A stretch of DNA of 29,523 nt from positions 1-29,523 of IMG/VR virus record IMGVR_UViG_3300043449_000693, one strand, 5' to 3'. The notes below the pieces were generated by a model. The model made no database searches and was not told where the DNA came from. It saw only the letters and a program-made list of their open reading frames with translations. Made by a program: the position numbers and the translations under genes. The DNA is from a virus. Numbering within the stretch: the first letter of the stretch is position 1; every line of letters starts with the position of its first letter. Shown one piece after another: positions 1,891 to 19,641 of this stretch.

Positions 1891-2298
1891 ATGCCCGGCT
1901 ACGGCATGAAGCCGGAGACGCCGTGGCGCCACGCGCTGATGCGGGCGGTCAACCGGCGGATGAAGGGCGAAGGCAGCCCGAAGCGGCTTGAGCGGCTGGC
2001 CGACGTCGTGGTCGAGGCGGCGATGGCCGGCGACATGGCCGCTGCGCGCGAGATCGGCGACCGGCTCGACGGCAAGGCGGTGGCGCGGCAGGTGATCGAG
2101 GGCGACGGCCAGCTGCTGGCCGGGTTCGCGGCCATCCTGGCGGCGGTGAACGAGGAGCGCCGGCGGCGGGCGGCGGGCGACGAGCTCGGGCCTCCGATCG
2201 TCGACGTGACGCCCGAATATGGTGCTGTGCAACAACACTCCGAGGTTGTAGACCACGATCCGGAGGACGCGAAACACGCAGAAAAGCCCGTCGAATAA
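1891..2298 (+). CDS. Terminase small subunit-like protein, 135 aa
   Basis: The 135-residue protein lies just before the large terminase, the usual place of the small subunit that recognises phage DNA for packaging. The central segment SPKRLERLADVVVEAAMAGD (residues about 29-48) followed by AAREIGDRLDGKAVARQVIE matches the signature of small phage/DUF5681-like proteins found upstream of TerL. These carry the L..IAD..V..A..GD...KEIGDRLDGK pattern. Homology is to that short motif only, and no helix-turn-helix is obvious, so the functional label is contextual. The C-terminus is acidic and disordered-looking. Start ATG 1891 has a weak AGGA about 8 bases upstream. A hairpin overlaps its 3' end. Confidence 0.65.
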   Translation: MPGYGMKPETPWRHALMRAVNRRMKGEGSPKRLERLADVVVEAAMAGDMAAAREIGDRLDGKAVARQVIEGDGQLLAGFAAILAAVNEERRRRAAGDELGPPIVDVTPEYGAVQQHSEVVDHDPEDAKHAEKPVE

Positions 2299-2307: not shown

Positions 2308-2618
2308 ATTTTCGATAATCATCATTATGCGATGGTGCGCTGCACCAACGCAGCGAGATCAACGACTTGCGAGGGCCGCGCTTCGGCCTGCTGAACATCG
2401 CACCGCGACGACGAGCTCGCTGGCGGCGCGCCTCGTGCGCGGCGCAGCAAGCGAGCTCGAGGCCGCCGGCCTCTTCCGGCCTCTGGCCGGGCAGGGAAGC
2501 GCCAGGATGGCGCAGGAGCAACGCAGGGCGCCGGCTGTATCCAGCCTGCGGCCGCCCGCCTTCCGGCGTTCCTGAGTCATCCTGGCGCGACCGCGAGGCA
2601 TCAACCAGCCGGAGCCAG
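2299..2618. other. 320-bp non-coding gap filled with hairpins between terminase genes
   Basis: No credible gene is present. The large-terminase frame can be extended upstream to a TTG at 2367, but the added 84 residues are Arg/Ser/Pro-rich and unlike any terminase. The region holds at least five inverted repeats: TGGTGC/GCACCA (2333-2347), GGCCG/CGGCC (2374-2388), CGAGCTCGCT/AGCGAGCTCG (2412-2421 and 2450-2459), GAGGCCG/CGGCCTC (2459-2465 and 2477-2483), and the long imperfect palindrome at 2499-2588. Such density suggests a mobile palindromic repeat of bacterial origin or a packaging (pac/cos-region) element. Confidence 0.7.
2499..2588. repeat. About 90-bp imperfect palindrome
   Basis: The outer arms GCGCCAGGATG (2499-2509) and CATCCTGGCGC (2578-2588) are perfectly complementary. 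A second helix CAGGA (2513-2517)/TCCTG (2570-2574) and an apical stem GGCTG (2533-2537)/CAGCC (2542-2546) with a four-base loop continue the fold, with GC-rich interruptions between. It ends 30 bases before the terL start codon and could fold in the terL leader RNA. Confidence 0.7.
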
Positions 2619-4055
2619 ATGCCCAAGGTAGCGACCGCGCAGAAGCCGGCGAGCGCCGACGACTTCCGCCAGCTGATCGCCGCCTGGGCGGACGACCCGG
2701 TCCTGTTCGTGAAGACCGCGCTCGGCGCCACGCCCGAGCGCTGGCAGGCCGAGGCGCTCGAGGCGGTGCGCGACCACGACAAGGTGGCGATCCGCTCCGG
2801 CCACGGCGTCGGCAAGACGACCTACCTCGCGTGGCTGGTGCTCTGGTGGCTGATGACCCGCCACCCGGCGAAGATCGCCGCCACGGCGAACACGGCGCAC
2901 CAGCTGAGCGACGTGCTCTGGTCGGAGATCGGCAAGTGGCACCGCCGGATGCCGGAGGTGCTGCGGCGGCTGCTGGAGGTGAAGAGCGACAAGGTCGAGG
3001 TGGTCGGCGTGCCGGACAGCTTCGCGGTGGCCCGCACGGCCCGCCGCGAGCAGCCCGAGGCGCTGCAGGGCTTCCACAGCACCAACATGCTGTTCGTGAT
3101 CGACGAGGCGAGCGGCGTCGACGACCTGGTCTTCGAGGTCGGGCAGGGCGCGATGTCGACCGCCGGCGCCAAGACCGTGATGACCGGCAACCCGACGCGC
3201 ACCAGCGGGTACTTCTACGACGCCTTCCACCGCATGTCGGCCAGCTGGAAGACCATGCGGGTCGGCTGCGCCGACAGCACGCAGGTCTCGGCGGGCTTCC
3301 TCGCGGAGATGGCGGCGCGCTACGGCGCCGGCAGCAACGTCTACCGGGTCCGCGTCGAGGGCGAGTTCCCGCTGGCGGACAACGACAGCGTGGTGCCAGC
3401 GAGCCTCATCGCCGCGGCGATGGCCCGCACGGTCAACCCCGCGCCCACGACGCCGATCGTCTGGGGGCTCGACGTGGCGCGGTACGGCGACGACCGCACG
3501 GCGCTGGCGAAGCGCCAGGGCGAGCTGCTGATCGAGGTGAAGACCTGGCAGGGCGTCGACCTGATGGAGACGGCGGGCAGGGTCTACAACGAGTTCCAGC
3601 TGTGCGGGTGGAAGAGCCGCCCGACGGCGATCTACGTCGACAGCATCGGCCTGGGCAGCGGCGTGCTGGACCGCCTGCGCGAGCTCGAGCTCCCGGTGCG
3701 GGGCGTGAACGTGAGCGAGGCGCCGGCGTTCGGCGAGCGCTACCTGCGCCTTCGCGACGAGCTCTGGTTCCGGGTGCGCGAGTGGCTGGACGCCCGCTCC
3801 TGCGAGCTTCCGCGCGACGACGAGCTCGCGGCCGAGCTCGGGGCGCCGCGGTTCCGGATCATGTCGAACGGCAAGCTGCGGGTGGACAGCAAGGACGAAT
3901 TGAAGAAGCGCGGCGCGCGATCGCCTGACAAGGCGGATGCGGTCTGCCTGACGTTCGCGGCGACGGCGACGGCGCTGATGGGCGGCGGCGGCATGGGCCG
4001 CGCCCGTGCCCGGCGCGACGACGGCGTGTCCGACTACAGCCCGTTCGACTGGTGA
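2619..4055 (+). CDS. terL: Terminase large subunit (packaging ATPase/nuclease)
   Basis: The 478-residue protein has the full two-domain TerL architecture. The ATPase domain has Walker A SGHGVGKT (about residues 60-67), Walker B LFVIDEA (158-164) and coupling motif TGNP (189-192). The RNase H-like nuclease domain has acidic residues in GLDVARYGDD (D285), YVDSIGLG (D341) and SPDKADAV (D437/D440). It docks on the portal, translocates DNA into the prohead and cuts the concatemer. The start was set at ATG 2619 with GGAG at 2611-2614, because the upstream extension runs through palindromes and does not look like protein. Length is normal for the family. The stop overlaps the next start (TGATG). No intein or frameshift is seen. 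Confidence 0.95.
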   Translation: MPKVATAQKPASADDFRQLIAAWADDPVLFVKTALGATPERWQAEALEAVRDHDKVAIRSGHGVGKTTYLAWLVLWWLMTRHPAKIAATANTAHQLSDVLWSEIGKWHRRMPEVLRRLLEVKSDKVEVVGVPDSFAVARTARREQPEALQGFHSTNMLFVIDEASGVDDLVFEVGQGAMSTAGAKTVMTGNPTRTSGYFYDAFHRMSASWKTMRVGCADSTQVSAGFLAEMAARYGAGSNVYRVRVEGEFPLADNDSVVPASLIAAAMARTVNPAPTTPIVWGLDVARYGDDRTALAKRQGELLIEVKTWQGVDLMETAGRVYNEFQLCGWKSRPTAIYVDSIGLGSGVLDRLRELELPVRGVNVSEAPAFGERYLRLRDELWFRVREWLDARSCELPRDDELAAELGAPRFRIMSNGKLRVDSKDELKKRGARSPDKADAVCLTFAATATALMGGGGMGRARARRDDGVSDYSPFDW

Positions 4056-14546: not shown

Positions 14547-16108
14547 TGCCGCGCATCCCGGTCTACCAGCAGCAGGTTGCCTCGCCTGACATCCGCGTCG
14601 ACGTCTCGCAGTTCGGCGAGCCGGGACGCGGAATGCAGCGCGCCGGGCAGGCGCTTGCCGAGGCTGGGAACGACGTCGCCGCGCGTTTCAAGGAGGCCGA
14701 GCGCGCGCAGAAGCTGATGGTCGCGCAGGGCCGCATGACGCGCGATCTCGCCGACCTCGAGATCGAGTTCCAGAACGACACCGAGTGGCAGACCATGCCT
14801 CGGCGATACGAGCAGCGCACGCGCGCGATGCTTGATGGGTATCGCGAGGCCTACGGCGCCGACCCCGTGGTGTTCGGCATGCTGCAGCGCGACTTCCAGC
14901 GCTCGCAGCTTCGCGGCTTCATCGACGTCAACAAGATGGCGCGCACGCGCCAGGTCGAGGCGGGAAAGGCCGATCTCGACTCGACGCTTGAGACCTACTC
15001 GCAGATGCTCGCCGGCACCGCCGATCCGCTCAAGACCGCGGAGATCGAGGGCAGGGCGCGGGCGGCGATCCAGGGCATGGTGTCGAGCGGCTTGATCGGA
15101 GCCGACGACGGGCAGAAGCGCGAGCGCCAGCTGTACGACCGCATCGCGCAGACACGCGCGATCGCGATGATCCGCGAGAACCCCGACGAGGCGTTCCGCC
15201 GCCTGTCCGACCAGGCCGATCCAGCCTTCGCGCGCCTCGACCCGAAGACCCGCGAGAGCCTGCTGACGCAGGCCAACAACCGGGCGACGACGCTGTCGAA
15301 CGAGCGCGCACGCCTTTCCGACCGGGCCGAGCGCCAGGCCGAGCGCCGGCTGCGCATCGAGGGCGACAGCCTCATGAAGGACATCGAGGCGAGGCTCGAC
15401 CGCGGCGATGTCATCAGCGAGGACGAGCTTGCCCGGCTGTCTCGCCACGGCGGCATCTCGCCGGCGGAAATGCGCATCCTTCGCCGCGCCATGCGCGACG
15501 GCCCGGCGCAGACCGACCCGCAGACCTACATGGACTTGAAGCGCTCCAACGTCGTCGACACGCCGGACGACTTCGAGCGCAAGGCGCGCGCCGCAGTCGA
15601 GGCTGGCAAGCTGAAGATCTCGGACTACAGCGCGCTCGTGAACCAGAACCGGGCCGACAACCGAGGCGACGCGCCGCCGTCGCCCTACAAGTCAGGCCGC
15701 GAGCTGGTGGCCCAGACGCTCGACCCGGGTGCCATCTTCCAAGGTTCGGCCGCGGCCATTGGGCGCAGCGCGCAGGCGCAGGCCATCGTCGAGTTCGACA
15801 ACTGGGCGCAGGCCAACCCGCGCGCCACCCGGTCGGACGCGATCAACGAGGCGCAGGCGGTGATCCGCCGCTACCAGGTGATCCAGTTCGAGCAGGTTGG
15901 CCTCGCGCTCGGGCAGCCGTCCTTCATTTCTGGCGGCCGGGAGGCGATCACGCTGCAGTCTCTGGATGCCGCCGAACGCGAAGTGCTGGCGCGCCTCGAT
16001 GGCGGCAGGCTGAGCCGCGAGCAGGCTGACCAGGAGCTCCGGAAGATCGAGGGCTGGCGCGCCATCAAGTCGCGGCCGCCCCAGCAGACGACCCCGCCGA
16101 GGCGCTGA
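14546..16108 (+). CDS. Internal virion protein (T7 gp15-like), 520 aa
   Basis: Largely helical, 520 residues, starting MPRIPVYQQQVASPDIRVDV, an opening often seen in gp15-type ejection proteins. It is followed by coiled regions (e.g. RYEQRTRAMLDGYREAYGAD, then RQAERRLRIEGDSLMKDIEA). In T7 the counterpart is ejected with DNA and builds the periplasmic channel with gp16. There is no enzymatic motif and no TM segment. Placement between the gp14- and gp16-like genes, with overlapping start and stop at both ends (TGATG), supports the role more than sequence identity does. Confidence 0.82.
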   Translation: MPRIPVYQQQVASPDIRVDVSQFGEPGRGMQRAGQALAEAGNDVAARFKEAERAQKLMVAQGRMTRDLADLEIEFQNDTEWQTMPRRYEQRTRAMLDGYREAYGADPVVFGMLQRDFQRSQLRGFIDVNKMARTRQVEAGKADLDSTLETYSQMLAGTADPLKTAEIEGRARAAIQGMVSSGLIGADDGQKRERQLYDRIAQTRAIAMIRENPDEAFRRLSDQADPAFARLDPKTRESLLTQANNRATTLSNERARLSDRAERQAERRLRIEGDSLMKDIEARLDRGDVISEDELARLSRHGGISPAEMRILRRAMRDGPAQTDPQTYMDLKRSNVVDTPDDFERKARAAVEAGKLKISDYSALVNQNRADNRGDAPPSPYKSGRELVAQTLDPGAIFQGSAAAIGRSAQAQAIVEFDNWAQANPRATRSDAINEAQAVIRRYQVIQFEQVGLALGQPSFISGGREAITLQSLDAAEREVLARLDGGRLSREQADQELRKIEGWRAIKSRPPQQTTPPRR

Positions 16109-19100
16109 TGGACGAGAAACTTTCCGACCCGAACGACCTCGGCGCCGGCTACGCGGCCTACCGCCAGGTCGCCAGCGCCGAAGACGCCATCGCCCGCGCC
16201 CGCGCGCGGGTGGCGGCACAGGAGGCTGGGCAGCCCGCAGTCGCGCCAGGAGCCCCCGTGGAAGGCGGAACGCCGCCGGCCGGGGCATCCATGCCCCCGC
16301 AGCCTTCCGCCGCTCCTGCGCCTTCCCAGCCCGTTCCCCCTCCGCCCGCCCAGCGGGATGGCGGGTCGGTCCTCGGCAAGGCTGGCGCGGTCGCTCGGGA
16401 CATCGGCAAGGGCGTGGTGGAGGCGCCACGGCAGGCCCTGTTCGGGATCTCGGACGCGGTCAACCGGACGTTCCGCGCGCTCGACGGCCTCGCGAACTGG
16501 CTGAACGCCAACGTGGCCGACTTGCGGATCGGCGAGGGCGAGGGCTTCAACCCGCTGCTGGCGATAGCCGGCCCCAACGACCCGACCGCCCGTGGCGCCC
16601 CGCCTGCCCAGTCGGCGACCGGCGGTGTCGTGCGCGAGGCGGCTCGGTTCCTGATCGGGTTCATTCCGGCCATGCGCGGGGTGCAAGCCGCCGGCGCGGG
16701 CCCGGCTGTCGCCGGCCTGACCGCCGGCGCGGTGTCGGACCTCCTGACCGCCGATCCGGATGGCGAGCGGCTGGCGGACCTGTGGAAGTCCGTCGGCCTG
16801 CCGCAGAACGTGCTGACCGACTGGCTGGCGCAGACCGGAAACGAGACCGACAGCGAGGTCGAGAAGCGCTTCAAGAACGCGCTCGAGGGCGCCGGCATGG
16901 GCGTCATGATGGAAGGCGTGGCGCTTGCCGCGCGCGCCACGCGCGCCGGGATGCAGGCTCGCAAGGCAGCGACCGGCGCCGTCGGCCAGGGCGTCGACGA
17001 GCTCGCCGCCGCGCGCGCCGAGTTCGGCAGCGTCACGCAGCGGGACTTCCTGTTGCTCGGCGACCCCAACGAGCCGCTCTTCGCGCTCCGCCAGCGCACC
17101 GGCGCAGACCCGCAGGGCAAGCTGAACGCAGCCAACGCGGCCACCGGCGACCTTGGCGTCCCGGCCGACGTCGCCGCCCGCGGGCTGGCGCGCTCTGGCG
17201 CGGCCGGCGGCGAGGAGGTCTTCGTCAACTTCGCGCGCATCAACACCACCGACGACATCAAGTCGGTGATCGGCCAGATGGCCGATGCCTTCGCTGGCGA
17301 CATCGACGCGGCCCGCCGCGGGGTGCAGTCCAACGAGGAGACCTCGAGGCTGGCGACGCAGCTCGGACTGTCGGTCGACGACCTCCTGTCGCGCCGGCGA
17401 GGCGAGCCGCTGAACGCCGAGCAGTCGCTGGCCGCGCGCCGCCTGCTCAACGCCAGCGCCGACAAGCTGCTCGAGATCGCGCAGAAGGCGGCGGCGCCCA
17501 CGGCCAGCGAGGTCGACCAGTTCCAGTTCCGCAAGATGATGGCGCTGCACTACGCCATCCAGGCCGAGGTCGTCGCGGCGCGCACCGAAACGGCGCGCGC
17601 GCTGCAGGCATGGTCGATCCCCGCCGACCTCGGCGGCGTCGAGACCAGCAGGGCCGTCAGCCAGATGCTTGGCAACATGGGTGGCCCAGACCTCTCGCGC
17701 GCGATGGCGCAGAGGCTGGCGATCCTGGCGCAGCAGGGCGCCCCGCCGGAGGCGATCAACGCGGTGATCCGCAAGTCGTGGGGCGCCGCGACGATGGATG
17801 CCGTGAAGGAGTCCTTCGTCATGGGCCTTCTCTGGTCGCCCACCACGCACATCGTCAACAGCACCTCGAACTCGGTGGTCGCGATGATGCAGGTCGCCGA
17901 GCGCGCGGCCGCTGCCGGCGTCGGCAGTGGCATGGGCCGCGGAGCCGGCGAGGGCGTCGCGGCTGGCGAGGCGATGGCGATGGTCTACGGCCTTGTGTCG
18001 TCGATGAAGGACGCCTTCCGGCTTGCCGGACAGGCGCTCATCAGCGGCACGAAGCCTGCGGCGTCAGGCACGCTCGACATGGTGCGCGAGCCCGCCGTGT
18101 CGGCGGCCGCCTTCGGCCTCGACCAGGCCGGCGCTGCCGGCAGGGTTGTCGACTTCCTCGGCCACGCCGTTCGCATCCCGGGGCACCTGCTGTCCGGCCA
18201 GGACGCCTTCTTCCAGACGATCGGCTATCGCATGGAGCTCCATGCGCAGGCGTTCCGACAGGCCGCGAGCGAGGGCCTGCAGGGGCCTGACGCCGCCCGC
18301 CGGATGGCCGAGATCGTCCACAACCCGCCCGAGAACATCCGGATCGCCGCAGCTGATGCCGCGCTCTACAGCACGTTCAACAACGAGCCCGGCGGGTTCG
18401 CGCAGCAGATCATGAAGCTGCGCAACTACCAGGGCGATGACGGCAGCGCGCTGGCGAAGATGAACCCCCTGTTCCTCGTGCTGCCGTTCGTCAGGACGCC
18501 GGCGAACATCCTTTCCTACTCGTTCGAGCGCACGCCGCTCGCCCCGCTCGTCGGGCAGTGGCGTGCAGACATCGCCGCTGGCGGCGCGCGTGCGGACCTT
18601 GCGATGGCGAGGATCTCGATGGGCACGACGACGCTGCTGCTGGCGGCGGATCTCGCGTCCAACGGCGTCGTGACGGGCGCCGGGCCGACGGACGTGGCGC
18701 AGCGCGAGGCGTTGATGCGCGACGGCTGGCAGCCCTACTCGATCAAGGTCGGCGACACCTACTACGGCTACAACCGCCTCGACCCCTTCGGGATGCTGAT
18801 GGGGTTCGCCTCGACCGTTCAGGAACTGACCGAGCGCGGCGAGATCGACCCCGACAAGATGGACGAGTGGAACGAGGTCGTCGCGGGCGCCATCAACGCG
18901 GTCTCGCAGACGGTCGTCGACAAGACGTTCTTCACGGGCGTCGCGTCCCTGTTCGAGGTCCTGGGCGACCCCAACAAGTACACCCGCGACTACGTCAACC
19001 AGCTGGTCGGGTCGATGGTGCCGTTCAACTCGGCCCTCGGGTTTGCCGAGCGCGTCGCCGATCCGACGATCTCCGAGGTGAACTCGCCGTGGGACGCAGT

Positions 19101-19641
19101 GATGTCGCGCATCCCCGGCCTGTCGTCGTCGCTGACGCCGCGCAGGACGCTGTGGGGCGAGGAGCGCAAGCCGCAGGCCGTCTTCGGCGAGGCGTTCGAC
19201 GCGGTCTCGCCGGTGCGCGTGTCGCGCGAGGTCGGGTCTCCGATCGACCAGGAGATGACGCGGCTGAACTACGCGCCGGCCCGCATCCCGAAGAAGACCA
19301 GCATCGGCGGCGCCGACGTGAACCTCGGGGACTTCCCCGAGGCCTACGACGAGTACGTCAGGCTTGCCGGCAACGAACTCAAGCACCCGGTCTGGGGCCT
19401 AGGCGCGAAGGACTTCCTCGACGCCGTGGTCACCGGCAAGCACGACATGTCCGAGATCTACCGGATGGGCACCGACGGCAAGGATGGCGGCAAGGCCGAC
19501 TTCATCCGCCGCACCGTCCAGGAGTACCGGAAGCTCGCGCAAGAGCAGGTGCTGAACGACCCGAGGTTCGTCGAGCTTCGCGCCGTCGTCGACGAGAAGC
19601 GAGCGCACAAGGAACGGCAGCGCATGCCCGTGATGCAGTGA
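16108..19641 (+). CDS. Large internal virion / DNA ejection protein (T7 gp16-like), 1177 aa
   Basis: The largest gene of the window. The product has a Pro/Ala-rich N-terminal linker (about residues 45-90), Gly/Ala helices with membrane affinity (e.g. FLIGFIPAMRGVQAAGAGPA; later MGLLWSPTTHIVNSTSNSVV) and a conserved C-terminal half. That half contains NPLFLVLPFVRTPANILSYS, YYGYNRLDPFGMLMGFASTV and PFNSALGFAERVADPTISEV, typical of very large ejection proteins in podoviruses. It would be ejected ahead of DNA to complete the trans-envelope channel. A lytic transglycosylase signature (ES...P, as at the T7 gp16 N-terminus) was looked for and not seen. A start overlap (TGATG) couples it to the gp15-like gene. 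Confidence 0.85.
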   Translation: MDEKLSDPNDLGAGYAAYRQVASAEDAIARARARVAAQEAGQPAVAPGAPVEGGTPPAGASMPPQPSAAPAPSQPVPPPPAQRDGGSVLGKAGAVARDIGKGVVEAPRQALFGISDAVNRTFRALDGLANWLNANVADLRIGEGEGFNPLLAIAGPNDPTARGAPPAQSATGGVVREAARFLIGFIPAMRGVQAAGAGPAVAGLTAGAVSDLLTADPDGERLADLWKSVGLPQNVLTDWLAQTGNETDSEVEKRFKNALEGAGMGVMMEGVALAARATRAGMQARKAATGAVGQGVDELAAARAEFGSVTQRDFLLLGDPNEPLFALRQRTGADPQGKLNAANAATGDLGVPADVAARGLARSGAAGGEEVFVNFARINTTDDIKSVIGQMADAFAGDIDAARRGVQSNEETSRLATQLGLSVDDLLSRRRGEPLNAEQSLAARRLLNASADKLLEIAQKAAAPTASEVDQFQFRKMMALHYAIQAEVVAARTETARALQAWSIPADLGGVETSRAVSQMLGNMGGPDLSRAMAQRLAILAQQGAPPEAINAVIRKSWGAATMDAVKESFVMGLLWSPTTHIVNSTSNSVVAMMQVAERAAAAGVGSGMGRGAGEGVAAGEAMAMVYGLVSSMKDAFRLAGQALISGTKPAASGTLDMVREPAVSAAAFGLDQAGAAGRVVDFLGHAVRIPGHLLSGQDAFFQTIGYRMELHAQAFRQAASEGLQGPDAARRMAEIVHNPPENIRIAAADAALYSTFNNEPGGFAQQIMKLRNYQGDDGSALAKMNPLFLVLPFVRTPANILSYSFERTPLAPLVGQWRADIAAGGARADLAMARISMGTTTLLLAADLASNGVVTGAGPTDVAQREALMRDGWQPYSIKVGDTYYGYNRLDPFGMLMGFASTVQELTERGEIDPDKMDEWNEVVAGAINAVSQTVVDKTFFTGVASLFEVLGDPNKYTRDYVNQLVGSMVPFNSALGFAERVADPTISEVNSPWDAVMSRIPGLSSSLTPRRTLWGEERKPQAVFGEAFDAVSPVRVSREVGSPIDQEMTRLNYAPARIPKKTSIGGADVNLGDFPEAYDEYVRLAGNELKHPVWGLGAKDFLDAVVTGKHDMSEIYRMGTDGKDGGKADFIRRTVQEYRKLAQEQVLNDPRFVELRAVVDEKRAHKERQRMPVMQ

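Follow-up and report, generated by a model that had tools for sequence, protein, structure and literature searches.

A hairpin-forming palindrome between the terminase genes of a small podovirus may belong to a conserved DNA packaging or terminus region

Why should a compact phage keep several hundred non-coding bases between the two genes of its terminase? The question is raised by a linear record of 29,523 bases from a viral metagenome, called the window here. Its virion genes, which encode internal virion and tail proteins, are podovirus-like, and direct terminal repeats are common in the podoviruses. A terS-like gene of 135 aa (1891-2298, plus strand; a weak DUF5681-type match) precedes terL, the gene for the terminase large subunit (2619-4055, plus strand; phrog_2, Terminase_6N), and in the clade to which the window belongs the terS-like gene always stands immediately before terL. 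Between the terS stop at 2298 and the terL ATG at 2619 there are 320 non-coding bp (2299-2618), just as the first-pass annotation had it, and its expectation that such phages should have only a very short gap proved equally sound: in phages with a DUF5681-like TerS and other types of TerL, the terS and terL genes mostly overlap, with no gap. The ORF at 2327-2575 was considered as a possible coding sequence and rejected, as it has no Pfam match and the gap sequence is non-collinear among relatives. A tRNA search found none, and Rfam searches, both with the gathering score and by E-value, gave no family, just weak chance-level miRNA matches. In a scan of 1750-2700 the gap had neither a sigma-70 promoter nor an intrinsic terminator (hairpin plus T run); the sole sigma-70-like promoter in the region scanned, TTGACA-18-TAGAGT, is at 1774-1803, upstream of terS. 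A genome scan for prophages found relatives in a mixture of records, most of them MAGs, and yielded no clear host.

The distal part of the gap is occupied by a GC-rich, extragenic, imperfect palindrome of 90 bp (2499-2588, plus strand). As originally described, its outer arms (GCGCCAGGATG/CATCCTGGCGC) are perfect over 11 bases; the 32-nt arms are 78% complementary. Folded as RNA it reaches -65.1 kcal/mol (z -6.4), which was equalled by none of 200 shuffles, and none of the 736 windows taken stepwise along the contig scores as low, although the one at 521 is close. A TerL search of IMG/VR produced 68 loci, eight of which have a related terS and terL and span the gap. Together with the window, these (L005, L006, L007, L008, L010, L011, L013 and L014) make up what we call the window clade of nine members. 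The palindrome is found at the same position in all eight relatives, with a length of 90 bp (92 bp in L005), and is thus retained in 9/9 members, which diverge to as little as 80% DNA identity, and has fold z-scores of -4.2 to -9.3. The 3′ arm (TTCCTGAGTCATCCTGGCGC) and the apical segment (TGTATCCAGCCTGCG) are nearly invariant and the 5′ arm is more variable. Four of the 37 hairpin pairs have changed on both sides, in few independent lineages, and the covariation score is higher than those of all 500 shuffles and of all slid versions of the hairpin. Because so few independent lineages are involved, the covariation supports a hairpin that has been kept, without proving that it acts as RNA.

The description of the gap as a dense array of five inverted repeats has to be qualified. 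The final palindrome is real and further repeats do exist, for example a short hairpin, TGCGATGGTGC-GCT-GCACCAACGCA (2328-2352, plus strand), whose GTGC-NNN-GCAC core is kept in all nine members; it is within a segment (2299-2369) that is conserved and mildly structured (z -2.8). However, an array beyond chance was not confirmed. The GC-rich stretch at 2370-2498, which has several inverted repeats (such as 2405-2429/2442-2466), has a joint fold (z -1.1) that is ordinary for such a GC-rich composition, and it is mostly unconserved, being largely exchanged for unrelated sequence between lineages.

Is the palindrome then a bacterial element that the phage has captured? The annotation had suggested a mobile REP/BIME-like repeat, for which many dispersed chromosomal copies would be expected, and a GC-rich palindrome of BIME-like size is indeed what the gap contains. 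The searches revealed no dispersed copies. The hairpin arm pattern was found once each in eight related viral contigs and nowhere else in IMG/VR (2.9 million viral contigs); the upstream motif has the same distribution; and the arm GTTCCTGAGTCATCCTRGCGC has 0 matches in 84,980 bacterial and archaeal genomes. Similarity searches at the DNA level in phage and plasmid collections gave either no homologue or weak GC-rich chance matches. A single-copy arm that is confined to one phage clade and missing from all of these genomes makes the capture of a REP/BIME repeat extremely improbable. The window itself has no second real copy of the palindrome: an imperfect palindrome at 16236-16326, 68% identical to the hairpin of the gap, is in the coding region of a 1177-aa ORF (16108-19641) and is probably a coincidence of low-complexity coding sequence.

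A broader view of the locus was obtained by a search for conserved blocks upstream of terL, over 500 bp, in 41 deduplicated loci from the wider TerL clade. Block A is an IHF-consensus-like site (GATCAACGACTTG; 2357-2369, plus strand). The perfect consensus, WATCARNNNNTTR, is present in 30 of the 41 deduplicated relatives, versus 0.65 expected from shuffles; the window has 12 of the 13 consensus positions, differing at the first, and its block A is a putative IHF-type site as judged by sequence. Block B is a single-copy dyad, ATAATCATCATTATGCG (2315-2331, plus strand), within the conserved string AAGGGTTTCGCATTTTCGATAATCATCATTATGCGATGGTGC. The dyad pattern ATAATNNNNNTTATGCG occurs in 13 of the 18 records searched, exactly once in each, in the terL sense and just before terL, and its reversed control gave zero matches in the records searched. 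In block C a short loop separates a C-tract from the G-tract after it, and in many loci a second C-tract follows; the regular expressions for blocks B and C match in most of the 41 loci. C7 tracts are rare, most of the records searched having them only in block C. The order of the blocks is not uniform, since A precedes B elsewhere and B comes before A in the window clade.

The window is one of the exceptions with regard to block C. Its pre-terL stretch (2589-2618, plus strand), which carries the ribosome-binding sequence GGAG, corresponds in seven relatives to 149-167 bp that include block C, with two C-tracts and one G-tract; in the window and L005 the block is absent, and these two nonetheless retain A, B and the hairpin. 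A GCCATC repeat is found at both edges of block C in the relatives, and this suggests that it was lost from the window and L005 by deletion or, alternatively, that it was skipped in assembly. The whole window record has no run of C or G of at least 7, against about 5 expected from shuffles, and the runs of the relatives are almost exclusively in block C.

The blocks also bear on the partner with which this DNA has evolved. The TerS of the window clade is a weak DUF5681 match, and an Sf6-type TerS (PF20901) is found elsewhere in the TerL clade; blocks A, B and C persist across this switch of TerS family. Considering that the relatives by TerS are mostly gap-free and that the blocks are kept when TerS is switched, the gap evidently travels with TerL. 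The suggestion that the small terminase recognises the gap is accordingly unsupported for A, B and C, as the TerS family changes and the blocks stay; a layout that survives such a change argues that something besides sequence recognition by TerS maintains it. As an observation in its own right, the different TerS families beside a conserved TerL and conserved DNA blocks (window 1891-2298 compared with L027, L030 and L079) amount to the swapping of the small terminase as a module.

The most informative characterised phage is the Sinorhizobium phage phiM5 (MF074189), whose TerL is about 50% identical to that of the window. Its annotation includes a direct terminal repeat of 357 bp (left copy 1-357, right copy 43648-44005), after which terL comes at 393. 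The right border of the repeat, at base 357, falls after a terS-like ORF and before terL, in a block that resembles block C and about 14 bases beyond its C-tract/G-tract; in the entire 44 kb of phiM5, C7 tracts are present only in the two copies of the annotated repeat. On the other hand, phiM5 has neither dyad B nor the 90-bp hairpin, the window has no C-tract block, and the window phage is known from a linear contig.

Conservation, single copy number, fixed place and orientation, a hairpin with some covariation and the coincidence with the annotated phiM5 repeat are all direct observations, and, on this sequence evidence, we consider the chances to be about even that the gap is a cis-acting DNA packaging or terminus region of a small phiM5-like podovirus. 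The packaging role that had been proposed at the outset thereby receives indirect support, from the presence of A, B and C across the TerL clade and from the phiM5 repeat that ends there, whereas its corollary of recognition by TerS does not. In such a region block A would be bent by a host IHF-type protein, and the concatemer would be marked for the terminase by the adjacent single-copy dyad B. In the relatives, cleavage to form the chromosome end would take place in or close to block C, immediately upstream of terL. The window clade has, between these putative recruiting signals and terL, the 90-bp palindrome with its hairpin, which would most likely serve in the processing of the terminus by folding back as DNA or forming a cruciform, either beside block C or in its stead. 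Several facts count against this packaging reading: block C is missing from the window and L005, which is odd if it is the cut site; block A of the window misses its first base and those of L005 and L013 deviate further; the order of A and B is swapped in the window clade; and phiM5, with a TerL of only 50% identity, has no B and no perfect A. The evidence for the hairpin is likewise tempered by the two-sided change of just 4/37 pairs in few lineages. The contig ends that occur near terL were not used as physical ends, since contigs also break inside terL. A bolder proposal, which we regard as rather unlikely, is that a DNA hairpin at the terminus has replaced the C-tract block in its function; terminase processing in the window phage and L005 would then rely on the fold-back palindrome. 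If true, this would be a type of terminus whose end is set by structure in place of the ancestral C-tract sequence.

How would such a region compare with well-described packaging systems? In the cosB of phage lambda, a site bent by IHF serves the assembly of the terminase (PMC4856287). The likeness is that of an IHF-type site (I1 in lambda) beside a proposed terminase-recruiting sequence, near the terminase genes. However, the window region is between terS and terL and not before terS, it has one dyad where lambda has three R repeats, and a long palindrome is added. The several repeated TerS-binding sequences typical of a cosB were not found, there being one dyad per genome and no such direct repeats in the gap, and no cosN was identified for the window phage in what was purely a sequence comparison. 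With T7 the possible parallel is that a palindrome near a terminal repeat could fold back while the repeat is being duplicated. A hairpin end of the T7 concatemer is attributed to Chung et al. 1990, as cited in PMC4925675, whereas the hairpin of the window phage is one predicted from sequence. Should the gap element be an RNA, its role would be analogous to that of the phi29 pRNA, a phage RNA hairpin that is tied to packaging; nevertheless, the window hairpin has no Rfam match in sequence or structure, comes from a different phage group and is a candidate RNA only.

This last possibility leads to the main competing explanation, also envisaged in the first pass, namely that the hairpin is part of a structured leader in a terS-terL transcript and sets the level of TerL via RNase III processing, mRNA stability or translational control. 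Since the promoter-like site precedes terS, such a leader needs no promoter within the gap, and the absence of both promoter and terminator there fits with it. The compensatory changes also agree with a leader, as does the better fold of the terL-sense RNA, which is favoured over the other strand by 7-16 kcal/mol in all nine members, with 50 G-T/T-G versus 8 A-C/C-A cells in the hairpin alignment. The hairpin also ends 27-30 nt ahead of the terL start codon in the window and L005, but across the clade this distance ranges from 27 to 167 nt. Moreover, the strand bias is weak when set against a control, in which 28% of strongly folding 90-nt windows have an equally large strand difference; we have therefore dropped the asymmetry as proof of an RNA and placed a role in the DNA terminus somewhat ahead of the leader. 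A leader would, in addition, leave the dyad, the IHF-type site and the link to the phiM5 terminal repeat unexplained, and no Rfam family speaks for it. All in all, it seems a possible but doubtful explanation.

An AT-rich dyad, an IHF-type site and a palindrome are typical of replication origins as well, and dyad B, block A and the hairpin would suit an origin or another DNA transaction site, such as a resolution site, beside the packaging genes; in the relative C72C1, a gene annotated as encoding a replication initiation protein is situated two genes before terS. Against this, the gap has no iterons, the iteron-like TTCCGCAG repeats being elsewhere (near 519-570), and the blocks remain linked to terL across TerS replacement and not to a replication gene, so that an origin appears unlikely. 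Less probable still is that the long palindrome has no function and is a by-product of fold-back copying at a terminus hot spot between B and C that then persisted. Between B and C, most other relatives have 28-53 bp, for the most part without structure; a longer, structured interval is seen in the window clade and in L166, and less markedly in L246. In favour of such a hot spot, L166 carries at 2050-2120, after dyad B and ahead of its C-tract, a perfect inverted repeat of unrelated sequence (arms of 27-28 bp, loop of 14 nt). However, L166 is a low-coverage MAG contig in which the palindrome may be an assembly artefact, and its close relatives L244, L248 and L249 have no such repeat. In view of this, we treat the recurrence of structure at this place as a mere lead and not as proof. 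A by-product is also difficult to reconcile with the retention of the palindrome throughout the window clade, even at 80% DNA identity, and with the strict conservation of its 3′ arm and apical segment.

Few phages have a known packaging site, and such sites are difficult to recognise from sequence alone. In the present case a layout of an IHF-type site, a single-copy dyad and a C-tract block can be traced through a large, uncultured TerL clade, and the hairpin variant offers a natural case without the C-tract block, so that the role of each part is directly testable. Elsewhere in the window, at 510-610, a strong hairpin (z -3.9) comes after the TTCCGCAG repeats in the 3′-terminal part of the ORF 1-612; the repeats could be either origin iterons or an operator.
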